From positions 28,730,983 through 28,794,982 of the forward strand of contig NC_058337.1 of the NCBI RefSeq assembly GCF_905475395.1: DNA of 64,000 nt. The letters run 5' to 3'. Positions 4,597 through 64,000 of this stretch are shown in pieces. The DNA comes from Chrysoperla carnea. Its lineage: Eukaryota; Arthropoda; Insecta; Neuroptera; Chrysopidae. Both the position numbers and the translations under genes were made by a program. Under the pieces are notes generated by a model. It did no database searches and was not told where the DNA came from. It was given only the letters and a program-made list of their open reading frames with translations. How positions within the stretch are numbered: the stretch's first letter is position 1; every line of letters starts with the position of its first letter.

Positions 4597-5832
4597 TCAC
4601 ATATGCTGTTGATGTTGTAATTGAACACTTTCAAAATGTTTATTAATTTCACGATGTATATGTTCCGGTAATACGCCAACATTACTAAATAAACTGCGCA
4701 AGACATTTAATTCTTCAGTTAATAGTTCAATACGTTTTTGTAATCGTTCATTCTCTTTCATTAATAATTTCACTTTTTCCTCTGTTTCACGTGAGCGTAC
4801 TTTTGCTTTTTCGCGACTTTTACGTACAGCGATATTATTACGTTCACGTCGACGACGATATTCATCACTTGATTTATCTGTTGGTTTCATTTGTTTACGT
4901 CCGTTTACACCGTTATGGTGGTGTCCAACACCCGTACCACCACCAGGTGAATGATGATGATGATGGTGATTTGTTAAACCAGAACCCACTAAACCATTAT
5001 TCCCAACTAATCCACCTTGCTGATGAGCTTGCATCATACCAGACACTTTATTTTTTTGTAATGCTGCAACACTATGTGGCAGCGTTGGTAACTGTTGAAT
5101 ATGGTTAACCGTTGCATGAGGTGATATTTGTGAGAAACTATTACCTGTTGCATTTGATATATAATTCGTTTGTCCAGATTGTTGCATATAAGGACTAGTT
5201 GGTAATACCGTATTTGTAACACATTGTCGTCGGAATTCGGTTGGATCTAAAGGTTCTTCTTTAATACTGGGTACATCTGATGAGGCAATTGAACTATTTG
5301 AGTCACTATTAGTTGAAGCTCCTGGATTACTATTTACATTATATGTAGCTGTTCCTGCCCCGCTGTGAACCGGTTGAGGCATGTAAGCTAAGGCATTACG
5401 ATAATTTGATAAACTACCATTAGAATTTGTCGTTTGTTGTTGTTGTACCTGAGGTTGTAACCGTGTATGCGTTAAATTTTGTAAATGTTTCGATGAATTT
5501 TGTAAGATATCCGTAAATAGTCCATCATTGAATTGTGAATCATCAATTAAATTTTGTAAGTCCAAACTAATTTCCGGAGAATTTAAATCACTTAAATCAC
5601 TACTTCCATTATTGTGTTGTTGTTGTTGATGTTGAAATTGTATCGCTAGATGGTGTTGTTTTAGCAAAGCCGTTGTTTGTTTCGAATTTGCATTATTATT
5701 TAATGTTGTTAAACTATTGTTATTATTATTATTGTTATTATTATTCACACTTGAAATTGTTATTGATTTTTTGCTATCATTATTTGGAGCCATTGTTCCC
5801 GTTTGTCCATCATACATTTGTGGGGAATCCAT
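4597..5832 (-). CDS. C/EBP: C/EBP family bZIP transcription factor (slbo-like), single exon
   Basis: A CCAAT/enhancer-binding protein: a nuclear homo- or heterodimeric bZIP activator. The 411-residue frame is complete in one exon, as in vertebrate C/EBPs and Drosophila slbo. The basic region is at about 325-344 ([20 protein letters not shown]). It is followed by a leucine zipper with leucines at 357, 364, 371 and 378. An N-terminal block at 88-112, with the [15 protein letters not shown] core, matches the conserved transactivation element of the family. IKEEP at 190-194 matches the I/V-K-x-E-P regulatory motif that is SUMO-modified in vertebrate C/EBPs. Low-complexity tracts are ten Asn (30-39), a Gln/His stretch (66-74) and six His (289-294). 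The start has A at -3 and G at +4, a good context. It could be any insect C/EBP paralogue, but the family call is very firm. Confidence 0.96.
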
Positions 5833-5866
5833 AATTTAATACAAACATTAAATTAACACAACACAT
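5810..5866 (-). promoter_or_regulatory. Candidate upstream ORF overlapping the C/EBP start
   Basis: On the minus strand an ATG at 5866 opens an 18-codon frame in a different register, ending in TGA at 5810-5812. It overlaps the first 23 bases of the C/EBP coding region. Its ATG has T at -3, a weak context, whereas the main ATG has A at -3 and G at +4. Leaky scanning would therefore be expected if this leader is transcribed. Vertebrate C/EBP alpha and beta mRNAs carry a small out-of-frame uORF that controls which start is used; whether this one is equivalent is inference. Confidence 0.45.
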
Positions 5867-7208: not shown

Positions 7209-7270
7209 TCCTATGTAAATTACCAAAGATGATTAATTGTAGGAACTTTATGCCTTAATCAATTTTTTGT

Positions 7271-7317
7271 ATTATGAATAGGCATTTCGACTACAATGTA
7301 GTCATCATCAGCATAAT
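7271..7317 (-). ncRNA. Hammerhead-ribozyme-like motif, copy 1
   Basis: The minus strand reads: stem I ATTATG, then core CTGATGA, an extra T, stem II GACTAC-ATT-GTAGTC, core GAAA, a 2 bp stem III with loop GCCT, cleavage triplet ATT, and closing CATAAT. Stem I (6 bp) and stem II (6 bp) are perfectly paired. The order and conserved nucleotides are those of a minimal type I hammerhead. One unpaired T between the core A and stem II is a departure from the canonical motif. Minimal hammerheads are known from Penelope-like retroelements, so this is probably a relic of such an element. Catalysis is not shown. Confidence 0.55.
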
Positions 7318-7584
7318 TTATTTGATGATAATAGTTTTTCATGTTTCATTAACTAATTTTGTCTACAGAATATGTTAAAAGTAAGTCAACGATCTCACTG
7401 ACAATACGTTAGAAAACTCTGGATTTACAAATACAAAAACTAACATACATAACATATTTCACTTCATTATGATCCCACATTCTAATTTTATTATCCATAT
7501 ATAGAGGTAGTGTGGCGTTCACACGACATTTTTTTGACGGTGCGCGGCATTATAAGAACGACGTCGATATGAATTTACACGCTG

Positions 7585-14603: not shown

Positions 14604-14807
14604 TATTTCATAAAGATGCGTATTTCTTAATTTGATAAAAATTTTTTAAGTTTTCAATGAAAATTACATAATTTTCTAAATAAACAATTGCCTTAACTTA
14701 AGATAAAATTAACTTTAAGATTTTCCAACGATAATAAACTCTTTATAGTGTTCAGAATACACCATAATTTTTTCAAATTTTTCATTTAATATTTAATACC
14801 TTAACAA

Positions 14808-15387
14808 AACAAGTGAAAACAAACAATTGACTGAGTTAATTGTTGAAATACCATGTATAGACAGTGTTGATGACTCCATCACATTACATATACATGCATG
14901 TTACACATACATAACTGATAGTTCCATAATTACACACTATACAATTTACGCCTAATTTCCGCCCTCACGGGTAAACAGTGATATTTACGAAAAAATGTTT
15001 CAAACAAAAGTTGATTATTTTTTTATAAGGAATATTTTATACATTTAAACTTTTGTTCTATCTCTAACGGTTTACAAAATGGGTCTTACGGACCCAAGAC
15101 CCAATTGACCTATGTTGCTCATTTACGAACTCGACCTCACTCTTTACGTCCTCAGTACGCTATAAAAATTTTAGCTTGATATCTCTTTTCATTTTTGAGT
15201 AATCGTGATGATAGACGGACAGACAGACGACAGACGATAGACAGGCAGACAACCGGAAATGGACTAATTAGGTGATTTTATGAACACCTATACCAAAATT
15301 TTTTGTTAAGCATCAATATTTTTAAGCGTTACAAACTTGGGACTAAACTTAATATACCTTGGTATATTTCATATACATAGTATAAAA
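14808..15387 (+). mobile_element. Family A interspersed element, copy A3
   Basis: A near-full-length representative. It starts ACAAGTGAAAACAAACAATT. The middle has CCCTCACGGGTAAACAGTGA, ACGAAAAAATGTTTCAAAC and CCAATTGACCTATGTTGC. A run of GACGGACAGACAG-like units follows, and it ends ATTTCATATACATAGTATAAA. The A2 and A3 central blocks are clearly homologous. No frame of any length is maintained between copies. Confidence 0.85.
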
Positions 15388-19640: not shown

Positions 19641-19656
19641 TCGTATAATAAATATA

Positions 19657-20208
19657 ACAAGTGAAAACAAACAATTGACTAAGTTAATTGTTGAAATACC
19701 ATGCATAGTCAATGTTGATTTCTTTATCACATTACACATACAAACATGTGACACATACATAACTGATAATCAAGTATAGTACATATTATAAAATTTCCCC
19801 CTAATTGGCGCCCTCACGGGTAAACAGTGATGCTTACGAAAAAATGTTTCAAACAAAAGTTGTTTAATTTTTGATAAGGAACATTTTTTACATTTAAACT
19901 TTTGTTCTATCTCTAACCGTTTACAAGAACCCAAGACCCAATTGACCTATGATACTCATTTACGAACTTGACCTCACTTTTTACGTTCTGAGTACGCTGT
20001 AAAAATTTCAGCTCGATATCTTGTTTCGTTTTTGAGTTATCGTGTCTACAGACGGACGGACGGGCGGACAACCGGAAATGGACTAATTAGGTGATTTTAT
20101 GAACACCTATGACAAAAATTTTTTCCTAGCATCATTATTTTTAAGCGTTACAAACTTGGGATTAAACTTAATATACTATGTATATTTCATATATACATGG
20201 TATAAAAA
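19657..20208 (+). mobile_element. Family A interspersed element, copy A4
   Basis: Full length, starting AACAAGTGAAAACAAACAA and ending ATATATACATGGTATAAA. It is the closest relative of A5 (21284-21837), which lies 1.1 kb away in opposite orientation. They share private changes such as GCATAGTCARTGTT and TAATCAAGTATAGTACA, so one probably derived from the other or from a recent common source. Confidence 0.85.
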
Positions 20209-20925: not shown

Positions 20926-21283
20926 AAAATTTTACGTTTCTTCAGACCAGTCGCGGTTTTTAGGCTATCTTGTCTAGATCTTACATGAATTACTTAAACT
21001 AACCCGTTATTACAATTATAGGTAGCATCGTAGATATAAAGAATGGACAGAGCGTTCCCTATCCAACTGTAAATTAAATAATGGGAGAAACTTGAGAGAG
21101 GGACAATGCGATCATGCGACAAGTAGTTATATAGACAGGTATTGGACGCACGGCGGTAAGCTTGTCACTTTCTACTTATGGTCAGTTTATTGAGAGTTAT
21201 AACCCAAATTTGAACCTACATTATCCAATAATTGCATATTTCTTACATCAGTATATGCAGGTAGATATCTATTGTATATTCTT

Positions 21284-21837
21284 TTTATACCATGTATATA
21301 TGAAATATACAGAGTATATTAAGTTTAGTCCCAAGTTTGTAACGCTTAAAAATAATGATGCTAGGAAAAAAATTTTGTCATAGGTGTTCACTAAATCACC
21401 TAATTAGTCCATTTCCGGTTGTCCGTCCGTCTGTAGACACGATAACTCAAAACGAAAAAAGATATCGAGCTGAAATTTTTACAGCGTACTCAGGACGTAA
21501 AAAGTGAGGTCAAGTTCGTAAATGAGCATCATAAGTCAATTGGGTCTTGGGTCCGTAGGATCCATCTTGTAAACCGTTAGAGATAAAACAAAAGTTTAAA
21601 TGTAAAAAATGTTCCTTATCAAAAATTAAACAACTTTTGTTAGAAACATTTTTTCGTAAACATCACTGTTTACCCGCGAGGGCGCCAATTAGGCGGAAAT
21701 TTTATAATATGTACTATACTTGATTATCAGTTATGTATGTGTCACATGTTTGTATGTGTAATGTGATAAAGAAATTAACACTGACTATGCATGGTATTTC
21801 AACAATTAACTCAGTCAATTGTTTGTTTTCACTTGTT
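21284..21837 (-). mobile_element. Family A interspersed element, copy A5
   Basis: Full length on the minus strand, from ACAAGTGAAAACAAACAA at 21837 to the ACATGGTATAAAAA end at 21284. By eye it is very similar to A4. The overlapping plus-strand frame at 21162-21383 is incidental. Confidence 0.85.
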
Positions 21838-21863
21838 TCTTTACTCTTTCGGATATTCAACTT

Positions 21864-30907: not shown

Positions 30908-31158
30908 ATACTCCTATAGAATTTTTAATTGGAATTTTTAAGCATAAAAGCTTCATTTGTCTGGGCTTTGAAAGATAATATAGCTAACAATTTTCTACCG
31001 ATGAAGGTAAGCGTTATTATAATAATAATAATAATAAAATTTATTTAAAAAAAACTATGTAAATTGTGAAATAATATAGTAAATACTATGAATTTTGTGT
31101 TTATCTGGTTACGTACGTGGTACCAGCAATTAGGTACGAATGCCATTATATATATATA

Positions 31159-31977
31159 CAGGGCGTTCTGTTATTAACTGCAGATCGTTGGCCTACAGAA
31201 TAAGCTCATAAAGACGAAGGAAAAAGTCATTTACCAATTTTTGATCTGAGCCCTAATTTGGGCGCTACAGGTATGACAAAAATTGATAAATTGGTAAATT
31301 CACTGGCTATCATTCGATAACCAGTAGCCAATGATAATCAGTAGATATTAAAAAATGTCATTTGATAATATTCAACTAAAGAAGGGGTATGAACTGATTT
31401 CAATTGGTTTATATTATTTTGAAAAAAACATTTAAAAAAAACTATTATATTATGCCATTGGTTTGATCAATTCCCACTTTTTTTTATTATTATATTTTTG
31501 CAAAAAAACATGAGATTCTTAGTAAAAAAACAAATAACGTCACAAAGAAGGCGTTTCTTGTTTATTTACGCTAAATTAAAAAAACGTCTTTTTGTGACGT
31601 TATTTGTTTTTTACTAAGAATCTCATGTTTTCTTGCAAAAATATAATAATAAAAAAAAGTGGGAATTGATCAAACCAATGGCATAATATAATAGTTTTTT
31701 TTAAATGTTTTTTTCAAAATAATATAAACCAATTGAAATCAGTTCATACCCCTTCTTTAGTTGAATATTATCAAATGACATTTTTTAATATCTACTGATT
31801 ATCATTGGCTACTGGTTATCGAATGATAGCCAGTGAATTTACCAATTTATCAATTTTTGTCATACCTGTAGCGCCCAAATTAGGGCTCAGATCCAAAATT
31901 GGTAAATGACTTTTTCCTTCGTCTTTATGAGCTTATTCTGTAGGCCAACGATCTGCAGTTAATAACAGAACGCCCTG
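31159..31977. mobile_element. 819 bp near-perfect palindrome with TA flanks (MITE/foldback)
   Basis: The left arm (31159 to about 31556) and right arm (about 31582 to 31977) are inverted copies separated by only about 25 bases. The termini CAGGGCGTTCTGTTATT...AATAACAGAACGCCCTG are each next to TA, as for Tc1/mariner-type insertions. By eye mismatches are very few; one example is TTTTTGATCTGAG against the inverse CTCAGATCCAAAA. Neither arm holds a useful reading frame. Such long perfect arms suggest recent formation or ongoing gene conversion. Confidence 0.9.
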
Positions 31978-31981
31978 TATA

Positions 31982-33701: not shown

Positions 33702-34345
33702 AAACAAGTGAAATAAACAATTTACTGAGTTAATTTTTGAAATGCCATGTATAGATAATGTTAGTTACGCAATCGTTTGTTTTTTTACGTAATGTAAGTA
33801 AATAAAGATAGCCACTCTTACACAGAAAGTAATAAATGTATATCTTTTCTTCTCACTTCCTCATGGTAATAAACAAACACATACATGTATACAAAACATG
33901 TATACTTGATACAATATAATACATGTATACATACTATATTTATTCTAACCTAATTTGAGCCCTCACGAGTAAACAGTGCCGTTTTCGAAAAAATGCTTCA
34001 AATAAAAGTTGTTTATTTTTTTATAAGAATCATTTTTTGCACATACTTTTTTGTTTTATCTCTTCACAAGAAGGACCTTACGGACCCAACACCCAATTGA
34101 TTTATCTTGCTCATTTACGAACTCAATCTCATTTTTTACGTCCTGACCACGCTATACAAATTTCAGATTGATATCTCTTTTCGTTGTTTTTAAGTTATCG
34201 TGTCCTCAGACAGCTAGACAACCAGAAATGAACTAATTAGGTGATTTTATGAACACCAATACCAAAATTTTGTTTGTAGTTTCAATATTTTTAGTAACTT
34301 GGGACTAAACTTAGAATACCTTGGTATATTTCATATATACATTTG
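33702..34345 (+). mobile_element. Family A interspersed element, copy A6
   Basis: Starts ACAAGTGAAATAAACAATTT and keeps CCCTCACGAGTAAACAGTG, CCAACACCCAATTGATTTA, ACTAATTAGGTGATTTTATG and the ATTTCATATATACAT end. It carries about 90 bp of extra sequence after the first 60 bases (a TACGTAATGTAAGTAAATAAAG region) and ACATGTATAC repeats. Confidence 0.8.
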
Positions 34346-39119: not shown

Positions 39120-39600
39120 GCTTACTTAGATAACAAATTCCCACTTTCGTTTTTGTTTTTTTGCGAAAGGGTTGTTAATTCTATTGGTATTCAGATGTTT
39201 AGGAGAACTAGCCCGATAATCTCTCCTGTCCCATTGAGGCACGCAACTGATAGAAAACGATCTCTCTGCGATAGTTAGGCTCGCCGGAAAAGTTGTCAGT
39301 ATTTGTAAGAACATTTTTATATTAGGGCACAAATTAGGGTCGCATGCGCTTCGATGAGAAGCTATCGACTCTGGAATAGTGGAATTGTTCTGTTTTGCAT
39401 TTGGCCATCCAGAGTCGGTATTCATTTATAACAGTTGATTCACTATCATTAATGAATCGCTGGTACATCTGAACCACTTTTTTCACAGCCTGAATATCGA
39501 TATTCAAGTCTTTGACACCAACATTTGGTTCATGTAGTAAAACTCCCAACCGAAATTGGTCGAGTACTTCCGGAGATAATCTTTTGCTCTAAGAGTCTAA
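39120..39600 (-). pseudogene. hAT transposase C-terminal fossil
   Basis: Minus-strand conceptual translation around 39250-39360 gives PNIKMFLQILTTFPASLTIAERSFS. This matches the hAT dimerisation domain (usually P-N-I-x-x-L-L-x-I-L-x-T-x-P-x-S-x-x-x-x-E-R-S-F-S). The preceding part lies in another frame at 39334-39549, so at least one frameshift separates them, and the frame is lost soon after RSFS. A CCCGTCACTAG end at about 39879-39889 could be one terminus. Dead element. Confidence 0.65.
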
Positions 39601-40518
39601 GTCATTGATAACGGAATCTAATAGAGATGTAAATTGATTTCCAAAAGTACTACCTCTACCGATTTCGCTATAATTTTTTTCGATTTTTGATATGTACATG
39701 CTTTGAAACGAATTTTTAAACAAAATAAATGTTCCCCCCAAAAATTATCAGATGGGGGTTTAGTATAAAAATTAGGAACAATAGACTAACTATTTGAAGC
39801 GAGTCATTTTTTTAAATATTTATTAAATCATTAGTCTATTTAGGTGATGGGCATGTCCATCGTGCCCATATGGGTGGACCCGTCACTAGTAATAAAGGAT
39901 TAAAGTTGGAGCCATAGCTTCCGGACTCCACATAAAAAAGCACATCTTGATATAAATAAGTCAATGATTTTGATAATAATTATAATATGATCGTGTGTGA
40001 AATAGCTTCCATGTGTATGTAATATAATATGCTAGACATGTATATTTAGAATATTAGTTTTATAATTTTCATTATATTTAATGATGAAGACATGCTAATG
40101 AAGAAATTTTAAATGTACTTTTATTAAAAAAATAAAACTACGTATTCTTCTCTGCTATTATAGTCTTTTCAAATCACATAAATATGATTAAAGGTCAGTG
40201 AGACATGTGTAAACACATTATTATAATGTATCATAAAATAATGTTTTAATATTTATGATTCATATTAGCACAACAAAATTATATCAAAAACCATGGTAAT
40301 AATAAAGAAAAAATTGTTGCATCTTTAAAATTTTTCGCAATTGTTGATTAGGTTGTAAAAACTTCGTACTAAAAAAATCAGCCACTCAGGAAAGGGGTCT
40401 TTTTTGGGGGGACAGTTTGGTGTTTTAATTAGTTTTTTACAAATCACTAAAAAACCTATGCATCAAATTAAAAAAAAGGTCAAATAAAAGTTCTAGCTAA
40501 TTTAATTGTGCACATTTT

Positions 40519-40790
40519 TATACCATATGTATATATGAAATATACATAGTATACTAAGTTTAGTCCCAAGTTTATAACGCTTAAAAATATTGATGCTACG
40601 ACCAAAATTTTGGTAATGGAATTCATAAAATCACCTAATTAGTCCATTTTCGGTTGTCTGTCCGTCTGTCTGTCAACACGGTAACTCAAAAAGGAAAAAT
40701 TATATCAAGCTGAAATTTTTACAGCGTGCTCAGGACATAAAAAGTCGAGTTCGTAAATGGGCAACATAAGTTAATTGGGTCTTGGGTTTT
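40519..40790 (-). mobile_element. Family A interspersed element, copy A7 (truncated)
   Basis: Contains only the conserved second half, from ATACCATATGTATATATGAAA (the family 3' end) to ATTGGGTCTTGGGTT, where homology stops abruptly. Truncation removes the first half of the element. From 40791 to 41276 no gene is seen. Confidence 0.75.
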
Positions 40791-41276
40791 TATAACTTTT
40801 CGTCTTTAAGAAAGGGTAAATTTTTTGTTTTATTCATATAATAATGTAAACCTCCGTCTGTTTTCTTGTAATATGTCGTGTACAATAACAATGGATGAAA
40901 TTTGTTTACGTTGGGAATAGATTTTTTTTTATTTAAAAGGTTGTATTATTCCAGCGCGGTATAATACGGCTCAAGGCAAGGGTTTTTAAAAAGTCAAATA
41001 TTTCTTTTGTAACCTTTTATTTTCTTTGCACTGCAACAAAATGTACCAACTATGCAAGAAAGTATATTTTGTCTCCCTAATTCTAATTGTATGCTTTTTA
41101 TAGCATTGATTATTTAGGTGGGCCTTAAATGTCGCAAGTTATTGAATTCCACTCACAATGAATATTTGTCAATTTTAGATTTTCCGAACATTAAAAAATT
41201 ACCCAGGCTCTGTGAAAGAACCCGGTTATAATTCAATTGAAATGACGGACAAAACTATTTTCGTCTTGCATTCGTC

Positions 41277-42420
41277 CAGTGCCGGGTTAAGCCAGCGCGG
41301 GGCCGGTATCAAATTCTGTTTAGGGGCCCTTGGTTTGCTTTAGATTCTCAAGTTTAGGGTATTAAATAAAACAAAACTGTTACAAATAAACTTTTCTGTA
41401 TTTAATATGGGCAAATTTAAATATAACACTTTCAATATCGACTTCTTTAAGCAAATCATGCTCTATATTCAACAAAGTGAGACGTTCTTGGCCCATCGTG
41501 TTCCTTAATTCATTTTTAATACGTTTTAATGTTGAAAAAGAATGTTCGTCACTGCAGTTAGTGATCATGAGAGACAAGTAAATGGTCAAGGCAATTTTTA
41601 AGTTTGGGGAATACGATTCTAAAGAATTATTTAATTAAAGTTTATAAAATGGCTGTTCCAGACTCTCCTGTTACTGTCAATAAGAGTAGCCACATCTGTT
41701 TCCAACAACTCTGCGAACTGCACTAATTCGCCACCTAGACTGTTCTCCAAATTATCTTCGTAAGCACTGACCATACTTGAGGATTTTTCCAAAATCTATT
41801 CTTTTGTAAGAGATTTTAGCTGTCGAAATACTTCAAAAACACTAGTAATCTTATGATATGCTTTCATAAGTTTAGTTAAAGCAAACAGTAGGTTATCAAT
41901 AATGACAATAAACACCTGAACTTGTCCAGGTGTTTGATTTTCAGCAAAGTCGTCGAGTGTAGTAGAGCCGCTAAAATGGTCGTACTTTTTATTTCGCTTG
42001 ATTCGTCTTGTCTGAAATATCTAAAAATGTGGATCGCATTGTTTGAACGTAGACATATAATGATTCATAAAGGGCGTATCCCGTACTAAGGTCTTGATCA
42101 GATCAGACGACTGCAGCGAAGCACTAGTCGCTTGCAAGTGTTCTAGGATTCCGTTCCACGTGATTGTCATTATTCCCGTTTCTAACTTATTCATCGTTGA
42201 AACTAGTCCATAAGCTTTATTACGCAACTCCGCTTTTTGATCCACGTTATTGAAAATGTCTTGATATGATATGATAAAACCACATAAGGCATGCAAGATA
42301 TTTTACGCTCCTATCTAAATTTTTTTTTATTACGGTCAGACAGGCGTTGGAGCGCAAGGCCCCAAAATTCACGGGGCTCGTAGCATTTGCTACTCTTGCC
42401 ACGGGACTAATCCGGCATTG
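41277..42420 (-). pseudogene. Degenerate hAT transposon with ZMYM-like transposase remains
   Basis: Termini are CAGTGCCGGGTTAAGCC (left) and an inverted GGACTAATCCGGCATTG (right), 13 of 17 positions matching. The flanking octamers CATTCGTC and CACTTGCC differ by three transitions, as an aged 8 bp target duplication would. The minus strand encodes transposase pieces. 41380-41589 gives the C-terminal dimerisation motif (SFSTLKRIKNELRNTMGQERL). 41790-41900 gives a broken FEVFRQLKSLTKE stretch with an in-frame stop. 42021-42296 gives a middle part (DIFNNVDQKAELRNKAYGLV). Stops and frame breaks show it is inactive. Confidence 0.75.
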
Positions 42421-47200: not shown

Positions 47201-50200
47201 ACTACAAACACTTAAAAAACAACTCTTGAGCAGCGCAGCTCCATCGCTATGGTCACATTTCTCCTTCAATATATATTTCTTATAAAAAGATGTTTTTTTT
47301 TTTAATTCATGCCTTTTCCAGTTCTTTGCCAGTTTTGAATTTATTCCTCTAGCTTAATTTAGAGAGGCTGGAAAAGCCTCCTATAAATCCCGAAAAATAT
47401 AATATTTCGATATAACGAGGGGGAAAGGGTTAGGAATTTGCACCCTTTTAAAAGACACATCCTGACTCAACCTACATACCGATTTTCTACCCTTTAGCTC
47501 AATTTACATAGGCTATAATGAAGTTTAAAGCCATAAAAACGTCGAAAAATCGATTTCTTCCCTTGCCATCCCCCTTCCCCAAATTACTGAAATTTAATGA
47601 CATCAATCTGCCTAGTAAATAACTCTATATGCCGAACTTCAGCTCATTCGGGCTAAAGCGAGCCCTTTACATATAGTACACGATCCGAATTAAGGGCAAT
47701 CTTCACCCATCTACTTACCGAATGAAAGTTATTTTTTATGAAATGTAAAATATTTACAAATATCCCTGTAGTGGGTTGCCTAAAAAAATATGGTCAAGAC
47801 AACTTTTAATAAAAATATCAAAACTTTTGAAGCTTGTAAACTTTATTTTTGACTGATATTTTGTGGACTATGATATAGCACCGCATTTGTAATCAATTTA
47901 TCTTTATTTAGATATGCGAGACAATGAATTTACAGATGAACGTAATTACTATTCACAACTTGTATAAATGCGATAATGAACGAAAAGAGGCAGACAACAT
48001 AGCTGCAGCATATTCTTTAAGGCTTTTACTTTCGAGTAGATCATAATTCGTTAGATATATAAGTCAGTGAAAAATTTCAAAAAATTTTACTCTTGATATT
48101 TTTACTAGAAGTAGCCTTGACCACATTTTTTTAGGAAACCCATTGCAGGGATATTTGTTAACATTCTATATTTCATAAAAAATAACTTTCATTCGGTAAA
48201 CAGATGGGTGAAGATCGATCCTAATTGATATCTTAGACTATAACCACATTCTTCCTCGTGACCTTCAATACAATGTATAAATCTACATTTTCAGGGAAAA
48301 TATGACTAAAAAGATTTATTTTGAATATTATGGTAAATACAAAGTCTAAAGTATCATTTAACTTGATAACAGAAAACAATGATATTTTTTATACGAGTTA
48401 ATCTTTACGGGCGAGAAATTCTTTAAGATGATAAATTATTTCAAAAATTTTATAATAAAGCTAAAATATTGCCGTTTATCCCTAATAATTCCAGCTATGA
48501 CCGATATCAATCAACAACCCTCAATAAAAATACCTCTCAATATGGCACATAATTAATCATATTATTATTTATATAATTATTTTTAATTTTAGGATTATAG
48601 TTCGATATCTGAAATTTAATATTTCGTATTTTTTTTGGCATCGACAAACTCGAACAATTACCAATCAATTTAGAAAGATTGCAAGCAAATATCCGAATAA
48701 ACCTGCATTTATTATTGATGATCGACAAATGACATTTAATGAGGTAAGTTTGGCAAATGCTTAAATCATGAAAACGATGGGGTAATGTAAAAAAATCAAG
48801 GATAAAAAAATGCTGAGAATGGTCCAAAATATAAAATTCAATAGTTTTTTAAATTATAAATAGAGAGAATGTGGTATCTGATAGTAGGGTATTTCGGTCC
48901 CACCGTATGGGCTTAATCCGAAAAAGCACAAGAGTACGCATGAATGTAACTTTGTTGAGTACACTCGGGCAAAAATTTTCCACTGGCTCTCATAAAAATC
49001 TACTGACGAGTAGTTAATTCCTAGGTCAAATGCTTCATTTCCTACAGTAAAAATGTTTTATGTTACTTATGTCACGTTGAATAAAACCACCGGCCGCTTC
49101 TTAGATAGATGGATGATATATTTTCATAGATTTATCCAAAATTAGCAGGTGGAAATTAAAAAAAAAAAAAAAAAAAAACTATTTAAATTAAAGTTAAAAC
49201 CTTAATAAATTATGAGAAAAAAACACGATGTGCCCGACTAATTAAGGAAGTAAGAGGACACTACTGGTGGATTATGTTATAACTGAAAATTAAGAATTTT
49301 GTTTAATTATTTAGCTTTCGACATTTCGAAGACCAAGGCAGATATCGAAAAATTGTATTCTTATTTTTCGTGTACATTCATGAAGTTATAACAAAATTCA
49401 TCATCAAAGTTGAAAATAAGGTACAAATAATTTTAACCCCAAGTATAAACTTACTTTGGCACTCGTACTGCCTTAACATTGATGGCGAAAATTTGCATAT
49501 TGGAAAAGAATAAGTCTTGCGGTTTTACGAAGCAGAACATATTTCCCCCTTTGCCTACTTTGCTTAAAAGTTATATTGTTATTAAAAACATCTTAAAATG
49601 ATTCCGACATTATTTAAAAGGAATTGAAAGTTCGAATCTCGATATCTTCATGCAATACATTCGTCTAACAGGTTTAAATTGAATTTATTTTCTATTTTCT
49701 TATCTCTTTTTGCAGGTGGAGTTATTTTCAAATCAAGTAGCACGCTATTTTCAAGAACAAGGCTTTAAAAAGGGCGATAGTGTTGCATTGTTTATGGAAA
49801 ATAAGCCAGAATATGTGTGTTTTTGGTTAGGTTTATCAAAAATCGGTGTAATTACTGCATTAATTAATAGTAATTTACAAAAAGATACATTATTACATTC
49901 AATAACATGTGCAAGTTGTATTGCTGTAATTTACGGTACAGAATTAAAAGCTCAATTCCAAGAAATTCAATCTCAATTGAAAGATGATATTAAAAGTTAT
50001 GAATTTGATGACATCGTTACTGTTAAAACAACATTTACAAAAGATTTACTGGCAACATCAAGTGATTCGTTAGATTGTTTAAATATATGTGGACCATCCG
50101 ATAAATTGGTATTCATTTATACATCTGGGACAACTGGACTACCAAAGCCCGCGGTTATTAGAAATTCAAGGTTTGTTTTGACATTTTTCTCTTCAGTAAT

Positions 50201-53200
50201 TTATCTTTTTAGATATTTACTATCTATGTTCAATCGTAACAAAATAAAATTTCTAATTCGCCCAATCAATGTCTAGAAAATTTTTATGTATTATAAATAC
50301 ATATTTCGACTACAATGTAATCATCATCAGTATGAACTATCTAATAGTAATTGTTATTCTCCTACGAGATGTTACTCGTCACTAATTTGGTGACTGAACA
50401 CCTTTCAGGAGAACTATGACGATAAGATAATACTAAATATACCGGAGCAAGTCTTAAAAAAATTTCAAAACATCGAAAAAAGTCTCTTTTCCCATTTCGA
50501 CATAAGACGATTTTAACCCAAAAGATACACAAATCGAGTTCGTTTGATCATTGGATAGTTTCTCAGTCCAATATTCCACAAGGAAAGTAATTTTTGGATA
50601 TATTTCAGGCAATTTATTAACAAGTGAAATTTACATTTAAAAAATCCCCGACAATTTATTGGGGTACGGAACCCTATACAAGCACTTGAAACATATTTAA
50701 GAACATTCTCCATTAAATTAATTTTTCCCTTAGAACCTTCTTCAAACTGAAACATAGCTAAGAACACTGTCCATTAAATTACGTTTCAACATAGCGGTTA
50801 AACTTATATTACTCTTTTTTTGATTCGAAAGTTGAAAAATATTGGTTTAAAAGGGAAATCAATTGGATTTTCGTGATATAAAAATAAATGTTTATTGTTT
50901 TAGGTATTATTTTATGGCAGAAGCATTTCGTTCATTAGCTGCGTTAAGAACCAATGATATCATTTATGATCCATTGCCATTATATCATTCAGCTGGCGGT
51001 GTCTTAGGTGCTGGGCAAGCACTTTGTTATGGTATTACTGTTGTCACACGTAAAAAATTTTCAGCATCTAATTTTTGGAAAGATTGCATTAAATATAATT
51101 GCACGGTAAGATTTAAACTTTATTTATTTATTTTTTTTTTTTTTTTTGCTTAAGCATTTATTTTTAATTGATGTTTTTGAGTAACAATCAATCTTCTTAT
51201 ATTTATTTATTTATTTGACTGAACTGTAATTAAAAATTTTATTTACTTTTAACATAAAATCTTTTTTATTTAAAGGGTTTTCCATTTAAAATGATAGAAT
51301 TTTAAACTTAAATTAAACAACTTATGAGGGTCCTCTTTTTTCTCTATGTATCAGGGCCCTTGTCCACCTAGCTACGCCACTGGTATGAATCAATCATATA
51401 AGAAAATGAGCATCATTAGGGAATTTTAAAAATTCTTATGAACAACCTGAACACACTATGAAACCGAGAACGGCATATTCTTGCTCACGCTTTAATTTTA
51501 ATCCAGAAAATATGCATTTTAGGTAAGCCAATACATTGGTGAAATATGTCGTTATTTGTTGACACAACCCGAACGCCCCGAAGATAAACAACATAAAATT
51601 CGTCTAATGTATGGAAATGGTCTACGTCCACAAATATGGGAAGCATTTATAAAACGATTCAATGTAAAAATTATTGAATTTTATGGTGCCACTGAAGGAA
51701 ATTCAAATATCATGAATATTGATTCAAAAATTGGTGCTGTAGGATTTGTACCTACCATACTTAAAATACCATATTTAAAATCATTATATCCAGTGAATTT
51801 GTTAAAATGTGATGAATATACTGGTGAAATAATACGTGATAAAAATGGTTTTTGTATACCATGTAAAGTGGGTGAACCAGGTGTGTTTGTTGGATTAATT
51901 AATCCAAAAAAACCATCATCCGCATTTGAAGGCTATGCCAACAAACAAGATAGTGAACGTAAAATAATTCGAGATGTACGAAGAAAGGGTGATATGTACT
52001 TTAATTCTGGTGATATTTTAGTTAGTGATAAATTTGGTTATTACTATTTTAAGGATCGAACTGGTGACACATTTAGGTGAGTTTGATTTGAATGAATATT
52101 GTTCTAACTCTTTTCTTTTTTTTAATAATAAAGTAAATATTGCAATCGAGTTGGAGTGTAAGTGGGTTTCCTGAAAATCTAAATATAAAGTTATCATTTA
52201 TAATAATGAGATGGTGATAAAAACCTTGAGATCTATTCATGCTCTCGGATAGCAATCGTTCGAAGCTTTCCGAAAAAGCATTTGTAGGTATGCAGGTTTA
52301 CTTTTGCTAATTACAGGCTACACTTGAATTAATCTATATAATTAGAATTTAATTAGAAGTTTCCCTATAATTGCTTCTCTTTGAAAGATTTCTATAGACA
52401 CCATACTAGCATCCATTATAACGAATTGGCTTTGGTTGATTCGCAAAAATAATGAACGTTTATCCTTTTACACCACAACTATTGCAGGGGCGTTCACAAG
52501 CCAGTCTACCTACATTAGTCGGTCAATCTTTAATAACGTCTCTGATTTATTATATCTCGCTTATTGTTCTTGAAAAACTTCAAATAATTCAGGAAGTAAT
52601 GGCTGGGGAAGATTGAGTCCATTTTTAGGTATCGTTTTTTAAGAGAGTCAACCGCTGGGACAATTGCTAAAACTCAACCTGAGTTGATTTTTTTATCATT
52701 GTAGATTTCTTTTTTTTTGTATTGATTTAGTCGATACTTGACGAAAATTCAACTTTCATCTTGTTATTACGTCGTAGTGATACACGGCTACACTTTTTTC
52801 AGTCAGATTCTAATACATTTGAGATTTCATTTATATTATTTTGTTTTTTTAGGTGGCGTGGTGAAAATGTTGCGACATCTGAAGTTGAAGCTGTTATTAG
52901 TAATGTGGCTGGCTTAAGCGACTGTGTTGTTTATGGTGTAGAGGTAAGGAACAACTATTTCGAATATGTTAAGAAATTTAACCGAAGAATGACATTCTAC
53001 GCAGAATCTGAGTTGAGAAATCTAATGAAAAAGCTTGTAGCTCCAATATTCCTATTCATTCTAATTTGAGATGTTCATTCATCTCTCATAAACTATAAAC
53101 CAGAGTTGACTTTTAAATGATCCTGAATGCTTAATCTCACCATTACAAATATAATGGAATCGATAGAAACCTACCATTACTTACAGTTTCAAATTAATTG

Positions 53201-60960: not shown

Positions 60961-61563
60961 TACAGAAACATTTTTTTTAAATTTTGCAGAAATCGAATGC
61001 AAAAATCATGTTGATTGCTTGTTTAAAATCTAAACAATCAGATTTAGACGTATATATGTCACCGTAATATTGTAATTTCCGTCAGATTGTAAACTGATTA
61101 TAGTAACAGTTAGAAAAAACTTCTAATTATCTGTTTACGGCTCAGATGATGATCTACAGTGGCTAATACATTCTCACGAGCCATGAGACGACGAATTTTG
61201 GGAATGTGGAGATAACTTATCCATTGTTAAAATGTTGGAAAAACAAAGAATGCGGTTGAAAATATTGACACGAATATCGCCAACAGCTCTCAAATTTGGA
61301 CAAAATTTCAAGGAAGAAAATGAAACATTTGATTTCATTCATAAAAGTTGCCTACACGTTTCAGTTTCAAATAAAGTAAACCCTCTCGAATCTTTTTTAT
61401 CATTTGTTTTATGATGAAACTGTTCGCGTTTTTTAACTTTTTAATCATTGATAAGTCATTTTAATGCATAGAAAAGCATTAAAAAACGTTAATATAGACG
61501 GGCATTTTAATGCATTGACATCCCATATTAAGTTATTAGTGGATTTATTTTCCAAAAAAAATT
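60961..61563. other. No gene seen
   Basis: Spacer between BBS2 and family A copy A8. A 60-codon frame at 61232-61414 has no recognisable motif. Confidence 0.3.
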
Positions 61564-62085
61564 AAACAAGTGAAAATAAACAATTGATTGAGTTAATTGT
61601 TGAAATACCATGTATAGACAGTGTTGATTACACTGTCACATTACACATGCATACATGTCACACATACATTACTGATATTCCCTCACGGGTAAACAGTGAT
61701 ATTTACGAAAAAATTTTCCAAACAAAAGTTGTTTATTTTTTTATAAGGAACATTTTTTTCTTTTTAAACTTTTGTTCTATCTGTAACGGTTTACAAGGTG
61801 GGTCCTACGGATCCAAGACCCAATTGACCTATGTTGCTCATTTATCAACGCGACATCACTTTTTACGCCCTGAGCACGCTATAAAAATTTCAGTTTGATG
61901 TCTTTTTCGTTGTTGAGTTATCGTGTTCACAGACGGACAGACAGAAAACCGGAAGTGTAATAATTAGGTAATTTTATAAACACATACAAAAATTTTGTTC
62001 ATAACATCAATATATTTAAGCGTTAAAAACTTGGGACTAAACTTAGTATAACATGATATATATTACATATATACATGGTATAATA
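61564..62085 (+). mobile_element. Family A interspersed element, copy A8
   Basis: Starts ACAAGTGAAAATAAACAATT, keeps CCCTCACGGGTAAACAGTGA, CCAAGACCCAATTGACC, GACGGACAGACAG and AACTTGGGACTAAAC, and ends ATATATACATGGTATAA. It has a short deletion before CCCTCACGG. The 104-codon frame at 61584-61898 runs through the element and is incidental. Confidence 0.85.
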
Positions 62086-62949: not shown

Positions 62950-63194
62950 ATATAAGGGCCAACCACGAATACGGGGTTAAATATTTTATGACAAATATCA
63001 CATGCCAACCGTTTTCTCAATTATGAATTTTTGTTTGAAACTTGTTTATGTTTGACTAAACTGCGTCTATTACTAAATGCTTTATAACAAATGCCATATG
63101 AAAACCGTTTTATTCCAGAGTGAATCAGTTTATGTTGAATTAAATCGCCTTTCCGAGTAAATGTTTTACTACAAATATCACATAAAAATGGTTT
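62950..63194 (-). pseudogene. Decayed C2H2 finger relics beyond the zinc-finger stop codon
   Basis: In frame after the stop at 63195-63197 there is one intact finger (C-D-I-C ... H-x-x-x-H, about 63110-63190). A second finger has lost its first Cys (SYGIC) and last His, and a new stop follows at 63021-63023. Further on, in another frame, ACDICHKIF (about 62965-63000) is a third finger relic. These were part of the array before it was shortened. Confidence 0.7.
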
Positions 63195-64000
63195 TTATTT
63201 ATTGTGAATACGTTTATGGATAATTAAATTATATTTAGTAGTCAATGTTTTATTACAAATATCACATTCAAATGATCTTTCTCTATTGTGATGAATACGT
63301 TTATGTTTATCTAATTTACTTTCATTGGTAAATGATTTAGAACAAATATCACAAGAAAATGGTTTTTCTTTATTGTGAATGCGTCTATGTGTAACTAAAT
63401 AACTTTGTGTATTAAATGATTTATTACAAATATCACATGAGAACGGTCTCTCTCCTGTGTGAATCACTTTATGCCTAATCAAATTATTTTTTTGATTAAA
63501 AGCTTTATTACAAACATCACATGAAAATAGTTTTTCTTCATTGTGAGTACGTTTATGTATATTTAAATAACACCGATAGATAAAGGTTTTATTACAAATA
63601 TCGCAAGCAAATGGTTTTTCTTCATTATGAATTCGTTTGTGTTGAGATAAATAGATTTGCCGAGTAAATGTTTTATTACAAATATCACACGAAAATAGTT
63701 TTTCTTTCGTATGAATTCCTTTATGTTTAGCTAAAAGACTTTGTGCGTAAAATATTTTATTACAAATATCACAAGAAAATTGTTTTTCATCCGAGTGACT
63801 ACGTTTATGTGTAAGTAGACTACTTTGATGGTAAAAGGTATTATTACAAACATCACAAGAATACGGTTTTTCCCCAGAGTGAATTCGTTTATGTTTTATT
63901 AAGCTGCTTTCATCATTAAATGTTTTATTGCAAATATCACATGGATATGAAATTTCTCCAGTGTGGACTCGTTTATGTTTTGTTAAACCTTTTTCATCAG
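63195..64000 (-). CDS. C2H2 zinc-finger protein, 3' part (partial, runs off window)
   Basis: A tandem C2H2 array, most likely a nuclear DNA-binding factor. The frame is open from the window edge to TAA at 63195-63197. It holds the end of one finger plus nine complete ones of the form F-x-C-D-I-C-N-K-x-F-x5-L-x2-H-x3-H. Linkers are variants of TGEKP such as NKEKPF, NEEKPF, TKEKLF and SGEKPY. One junction between fingers eight and nine has an extra residue (RIHHNRERSF). There is no Met in the visible frame, so the start and any effector domain (for example ZAD) lie beyond the edge. The array ends with HKRIHNK then stop, where a further linker would be expected. Orthology cannot be decided from fingers alone. 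Confidence 0.88.
   Translation of the reverse strand, partial: DEKGLTKHKRVHTGEISYPCDICNKTFNDESSLIKHKRIHSGEKPYSCDVCNNTFYHQSSLLTHKRSHSDEKQFSCDICNKIFYAQSLLAKHKGIHTKEKLFSCDICNKTFTRQIYLSQHKRIHNEEKPFACDICNKTFIYRCYLNIHKRTHNEEKLFSCDVCNKAFNQKNNLIRHKVIHTGERPFSCDICNKSFNTQSYLVTHRRIHNKEKPFSCDICSKSFTNESKLDKHKRIHHNRERSFECDICNKTLTTKYNLIIHKRIHNK

Follow-up and report, generated by a model that had tools for sequence, protein, structure and literature searches.

Does the minus-strand segment at 7271-7317 of the analysed window, a 64,000-nt stretch of the Chrysoperla carnea genome, represent a hammerhead ribozyme, and what brought it there? The initial annotation had proposed, from the letters alone, a hammerhead of Penelope origin. 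We are highly confident that the segment is part of a decayed solo pLTR of a Penelope-like element (PLE), and that the motif is the minimal type I hammerhead of that pLTR with an extra nucleotide after A9.

Two hammerhead copies in the window

All parts of the predicted hammerhead were located in the window sequence, as annotated. Read on the minus strand from 7317 to 7271, copy 1 consists of ATTATG / CTGATGA / T / GACTAC-ATT-GTAGTC / GAAA / TGCCTAT / T / CATAAT. The predicted stem I has 6 bp, the core CTGATGA (7311-7305) is followed by the extra T at 7304, stem II has 6 bp, GAAA lies at 7288-7285, and stem III has 2 bp with the loop GCCU. The triplet AUU at 7279-7277 places the predicted cut between 7277 and 7276. 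Copy 1 was recognized as a minimal type I hammerhead by motif scans, together with a repeat-profile match at 7314-7253. The same scans found copy 2 on the minus strand at 50287-50335, with its core starting at 50330. Copy 2 has just three continuous stem I pairs, and its helix III is self-complementary (AUAUGUAU, with a G.U pair). The relation between the two copies that had been suspected was borne out by an alignment of 81 nt with 80% identity, in which 1/27 compared positions changed in the core and 15/47 in the flanks (Fisher p 0.007).

Each copy lies in a minus-strand pLTR relic. The relic around copy 1 (7250-7340) was delimited by the 81-nt match to copy 2 and by a match to the pLTR of a PLE locus, L108, described below; this is the detectable part of the repeat only, and by eye it possibly extends to about 7214. 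The relic around copy 2 (50247-50399) was delimited by a profile match with E 2e-24. Identity to the L108 pLTR was 77% over 74 nt (7320-7250) for copy 1 and 75% over 123 nt for copy 2. Comparison of the window with the ORF parts of L108 and of a second locus, L109, gave no match, and a regular-expression scan of limited sensitivity detected no PLE domain in the window. Because no PLE coding sequence was found in the window, the two copies are regarded as solo pLTR relics. A second pLTR arm was searched for at both copies and was not found.

Copy 2 is antisense to a fatty-acid-transport-like gene, whose AMP-binding frames flank it on the plus strand (49683-50276 and 51523-52080), and it is apparently intronic, with the splice site judged by eye. 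Copy 1 lies on the sense strand of a bZIP ORF (4597-5835, C/EBP-like by eye), about 1.4 kb upstream. This position, an intact core and a perfect stem I, which is a private change of copy 1 where the repeat family has a C.A mismatch, would suit recruitment of copy 1 to act in cis as a ribozyme on the transcripts of this C/EBP-like gene. However, the self-complementarity of loop III is interrupted in copy 1 by a C.C, its predicted fold contains a rival hairpin that sequesters the core, and more than two thousand similar relics are present in the genome, so that we consider recruitment very improbable. Both copies in the window are probably inert, carried along as passengers.

Several other features were noted in the window. 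An inverted repeat at 31155-31981, with 375-nt arms that are 99% complementary and 77 nt apart, looks like a young foldback or MITE-like element. Members of a dispersed repeat family, several hundred bases long, occur in both orientations at 14785-15379, 19647-20198, 21276-21860, 33929-34341, 61556-62073 and other places. Open frames on the minus strand at 39129-42302 resemble by eye fragments of a hAT-type transposase. An array of 84-bp repeats at 63036-63998 (minus strand) appears by eye to encode C2H2 zinc fingers.

Genome-wide copies of the repeat

The strict motif was absent from 300 simulated windows (first-order Markov, both strands). The core together with a stem II of at least 6 bp occurred nine times in the same 300, or about 0.03 per window, and this combination alone is therefore not very rare.

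The host assembly (559 Mb, 337 contigs) was searched with a 27-nt core pattern, which includes the extra nucleotide by construction. With up to three mismatches, 2,214 matches were obtained and none with the reversed control, so the further genomic copies that had been called for do exist. A 23-nt piece of the 5' flank, with up to two mismatches, gave 1,846 matches, again with none in the reversed control. Since the first set of loci had been selected by the core, 20 loci were fetched through the flank alone. Sixteen of them align through the hammerhead core, nine of these 16 with CTGANGA and GAAA intact, and T occupies the extra-nucleotide position in 15 of the 16. Identity to the consensus in the flank-selected copies was 0.939 for the core, compared with 0.945 and 0.907 for the flanks, with 152/158 at the ten most constrained core positions; in 17 copies found by the profile only, it was 0.878 against 0.821 and 0.866. 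The dispersed copies decay nearly or fully neutrally, with little or no added conservation of the core, and copy number alone therefore proves nothing about a ribozyme.

Covariation within the single repeat family was set aside as uninformative, because the copies are too alike and were selected by the core; of 82 copies, 62 carry a C.A mismatch at pair 4 of stem I. For the longest 5' part of the repeat just three matches were obtained; two of them were fetched, and by eye neither contains an RT frame. Regular-expression scans of 10 loci of about 9 kb around ordinary copies, limited in sensitivity, found no PLE domain. Motif scans of viral contigs gave no match, and those of bacterial and archaeal genomes gave three, all within bacterial reading frames and, by eye, without a full stem II.

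The source Penelope-like element

The genome was searched with a PLE RT probe, which matches RVT_1 of Pfam and is taken to be of PLE type from the motifs of the family. It gave at least 151 matches in the genome (about 150 scored of 297 candidates; best E 2.6e-45). The matches listed include open frames of up to 891 aa, several of them in inverted head-to-head arrays. At the centres of two such arrays, L107 and L108, the pLTR profile was found with E 2e-56 and 2e-57, and both carry, upstream of the ORF, the hammerhead CTGATGA-T-GACTAC-TTG-GTAGTC-GAAA.

In L108 the core starts at position 2916, and an open RT frame begins 141 nt further downstream. Counted from the core start, a short end of the repeat lies at +86, a long end at +135 and the ATG at +142. 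The predicted cut follows +37, leaving 49 nt to the short end, 98 nt to the long end and 104 nt to the ATG. The ORF matches RVT_1 of Pfam (E 7e-16) and runs by eye into a GIY...YVG motif at the edge of the locus, ending in SGIYCIGCQNCSKKYVG; the Pfam GIY-YIG model gave no match over this cut-off domain. The pLTR of the window repeat is shared with a PLE that has a predicted PLE-type RT, and the Penelope reading of the motif is supported. The expectation of Penelope sequence near the motif held at L107 and L108, where the hammerhead precedes an RT frame, and failed in the window, where no coding part was detected.

Three other approaches to the element were abandoned. A genome search with PF01541 detected a single GIY-YIG gene, which by eye resembles SLX1. 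The exclusion of PLEs that this seemed to give was overturned by the RT probe, and we regard the result as a failure of sensitivity because the PLE ORF contains GIY...YVG (by eye). RVT_1 as a genome-wide PLE finder (150 of 3,448 candidates scored) was not PLE-specific. A short open frame beginning at loop II was also rejected, its frame differing by eye between subfamilies and the true ORF starting further on.

Some of the PLE loci look recent. Positions 1-4801 of L108 form a head-to-head inverted array with 98.9% identity over 4.45 kb, by its look a recent insertion, and a near-perfect head-to-head inverted array with a spacing of about 2,817 bases at G000:C3:88808388-88821942 gives the same impression. 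A further locus, L105, carries about 300 bases on the hammerhead-side end in which a piece from the start region of the PLE pLTR is followed by tRNA-type-like sequence with a box B-like GGTTCGATTCC (by eye).

Inverted pairs, arm ends and target duplications

Seventy loci surrounding core matches, among them two overlapping pairs, were fetched and profiled for copies of the repeat. A single match was found in 41 and two or more in 29, and in 27 of these 29 the copies are inverted head to head, as recounted by eye. The arms have two alternative 3' ends, '...AAAAATCGAAATTTA' and '...CTTTGATAATATTTATA', separated by 49 nt, and the outer end precedes the ATG of the source element by 6 nt.

The outer flanks of the 27 inverted pairs were examined for target duplications, taking the best of the possible choices of ends. 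A flank repeat scoring at least 8 was found in 8/27 pairs, compared with 17/702 mismatched pairs treated alike (Fisher p 8e-7). The duplications in these eight pairs are 9-13 bp long, four with one mismatch. By the best-scoring ends, seven of the eight combine a short-end with a long-end arm and one combines two long-end arms. No convincing duplication was seen in the other 19 pairs, apart from one that the script overlooked and that was recognized by eye at L063. A MITE or Helitron with long inverted arms was rejected as an explanation, because the arms are two 5'-truncated pLTRs. At the level of the family, the repeat shows the inverted pLTR pair, the optional tail and the target duplication of a PLE.

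These arrangements also bear on the possibility that the copies are not pLTR fragments and belong to non-autonomous retrozymes, small type I hammerhead elements that move as circular RNA. The copies are short, coding-free and very numerous and carry a type I hammerhead, and insect retrozyme-like repeats are on record in passages of PMC7229834. Neither window copy, however, is in a tandem repeat of 170-400 nt, and the only tandem seen among 30 loci measures 79 nt (L030/L031). Moreover, an ORF-bearing PLE has this very sequence as its pLTR, and in their ends, inversion and target duplications the copies follow the PLE pattern. We regard a retrozyme origin as extremely unlikely.

Comparison of four PLE families

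We scanned 14 PLE-linked loci (L107, L108 and L110-L121), 12 of them stretches upstream of RT matches hand-picked from those listed, for a full motif consisting of the core, stem II, a self-complementary helix III and at least three pairs of stem I, with 0, 1 or 2 extra nucleotides permitted before stem II. The full motif was found in six of the 14 loci, representing four families, and not at all in 4 Mb of simulated sequence (one strand). It was absent from the other eight loci, which neither support nor contradict the result, since in most of them no long open frame is present where one would be expected. In the four families, 141, 107, 90 and 130 nt separate the core from the first ATG of the open frame downstream. 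The hammerhead of family A sits in the same pLTR as the window repeat, and the ORFs of families A and B are 48% identical.

Stem II reads GACTAC/GTAGTC, GATTGC/GCAATC, GACT/AGTT and GATC/GATC in the four families, and helix III reads AATACGTATT, ACCGGT, ATGATCAT and TGTATACA, all fully self-complementary. Changes on both sides of a pair were seen between families at pairs 1, 3 and 4 of stem I (pair 4 being C.A in family A), at pairs 3 and 4 of stem II, and throughout helix III. The compensatory changes that had been called for are therefore found in stems I, II and III when families are compared, and the predicted helices appear to have been kept by such changes between relatives. One locus, L113, has GAAU instead of GAAA, with a matching U.A pair at 15.1-16.1; for this kind of variant less efficient self-cleavage is reported in parts of PMC3088659.

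By their sequences, these motifs would be type I minimal hammerheads, with CUGANGA, GAAA, three helices in order and NUH. The predicted core departs from the canonical one in the insertion beside A9. Exactly one extra nucleotide separates A9 from stem II in each family (T, G, T and T), and the suggestion that the extra T marks the lineage of the window repeat did not hold, as the insertion is shared by all four motif-bearing families. De la Pena and Flores reportedly described in 2001, to judge by the title, an extra core nucleotide in a viroid hammerhead. That nucleotide reportedly occupies the same position. We make no claim that an extra nucleotide after A9 is unreported.

The comparison also bears on a rival reading, in which an unrelated high-copy repeat resembles a hammerhead by chance and its copy number multiplied one coincidence. 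The core with a stem II of at least 6 bp arises by chance about 0.03 times per window, copies of a single family are not independent, and the dead copies have little or no raised core conservation. However, the complete motif recurs in four PLE families, with stems that differ and in similar positions before the ORF, and simulated sequence did not yield it once; because of this four-family comparison we reject the chance reading, which has hardly any probability left.

Rfam models and predicted folding

A covariance-model search had been recommended as a check. The Rfam hammerhead models reported no match to the window copies, even at E 10, and a permissive scan missed all four complete PLE hammerheads given to it (L108, L110, L111 and L113). 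Because these complete relatives were missed too, the silence of Rfam on the window copies says nothing, and Rfam was discarded as an arbiter. The Rfam release used is insensitive to the present hammerhead subtype, a gap in the library.

For the isolated window copies, the folding program favours other structures. The hammerhead was the minimum-energy fold of the monomer in none of eight sequences tried, and in four dimers tried it was 13-28 kcal/mol above the best dimer fold. Such non-minimal predicted folds would fit a need for protein and would equally fit inactivity. The self-complementary helix III, by analogy with known hammerheads, points to dimers.

A model for the living element

The preferred reading, that of a PLE pLTR with its own hammerhead, suggests how the relics may have been formed. 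The transcript of the living element would cleave itself at the pLTR, aided by dimers that form through the self-complementary helix III and possibly also by a PLE protein, on the analogy of the Anolis PLE. Reverse transcription would begin at an internal site, some 49 or 98 nt to the 3' side of the cut, and may be primed on both cleaved target strands. The 5'-truncated products would then be joined in head-to-head orientation, so that most of the relics, those in the window included, consist of the pLTR alone.

A more specific version can be put forward as a speculation that we hold to be unlikely, although far from negligible. The extra nucleotide and the self-complementary helix III would be one design, in which the ribozyme is active only as a dimer held by the PLE protein; the cut, the starts at 49 and 98 nt and the short and long arms would then be coupled, with one start for each target strand.

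The role of hammerheads in Penelope elements is termed unknown in a passage of the review PMC7761336. In the present genome, several PLE families combine open RT frames with hammerheads that differ between them, and the ends and target duplications of about two thousand relics preserve the start points of reverse transcription. The order of cleavage, dimerisation and two-strand priming can therefore be tested by sequence and by experiment.

Comparison with known systems

Minimal type I hammerheads of PLEs were reportedly treated by Cervera and De la Pena in 2014 and by Lunse, Weinberg and Breaker in 2017. Their presence in PLE pLTRs is described in parts of two reviews (PMC6155905, PMC7761336). 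In the same passages, the known PLE hammerheads share with those described here the location in the pLTR, the minimal form without a stable helix III, a possible cleavage as dimers and an occurrence in thousands of copies in animal genomes; the four families here differ in the one extra nucleotide between A9 and stem II. Dimers have been proposed for newt, Aedes and PLE hammerheads, according to sections of PMC6155905, PMC3088659 and PMC7761336. The repeat-type hammerheads of Aedes aegypti likewise have a palindromic stem and loop III that allow a dimeric hammerhead, but they are linked to no element in the text of PMC3088659 considered here, whereas ours are PLE-linked; the Aedes RNA that was assayed showed no cleavage, by the same text.

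PAc, a Poseidon PLE of Anolis carolinensis, offers the closest view of a mechanism in the portions of PMC11167929 drawn on here. It has a hammerhead at the border between pLTR and ORF, and its reverse transcription starts internally at two adjacent sites, as is suggested here from sequence. Both target strands are cleaved and extended in PAc, and we propose the same here. The start is 85-92 nt 3' of the cut in PAc by the numbers of that paper, compared with a predicted 49 and 98 nt here, and the ORF of PAc begins 26 nt ahead of the cut, at stem II, while the ATG here is 104 nt after it. The PAc hammerhead cleaved RNA only with protein present; mutants of it left insertion in vitro unchanged, and no RNA-seq ends were found at the cut (PMC11167929).

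The Penelope elements of Adineta vaga resemble the present family in the arrangement of the insert. According to parts of PMC3846280, which do not deal with ribozymes, they share inserts completed by an inverted pLTR, a tail that one of the inverted pLTRs may carry, a pLTR length of about 200 bp, head-to-head junctions and solo pLTRs. The tail is 31 bp there and 49 nt here, and the target duplications are 8-10 bp there and 9-13 bp here. The window element thus belongs to a known kind, the hammerhead-bearing PLEs, of which it is a well-supported new member.
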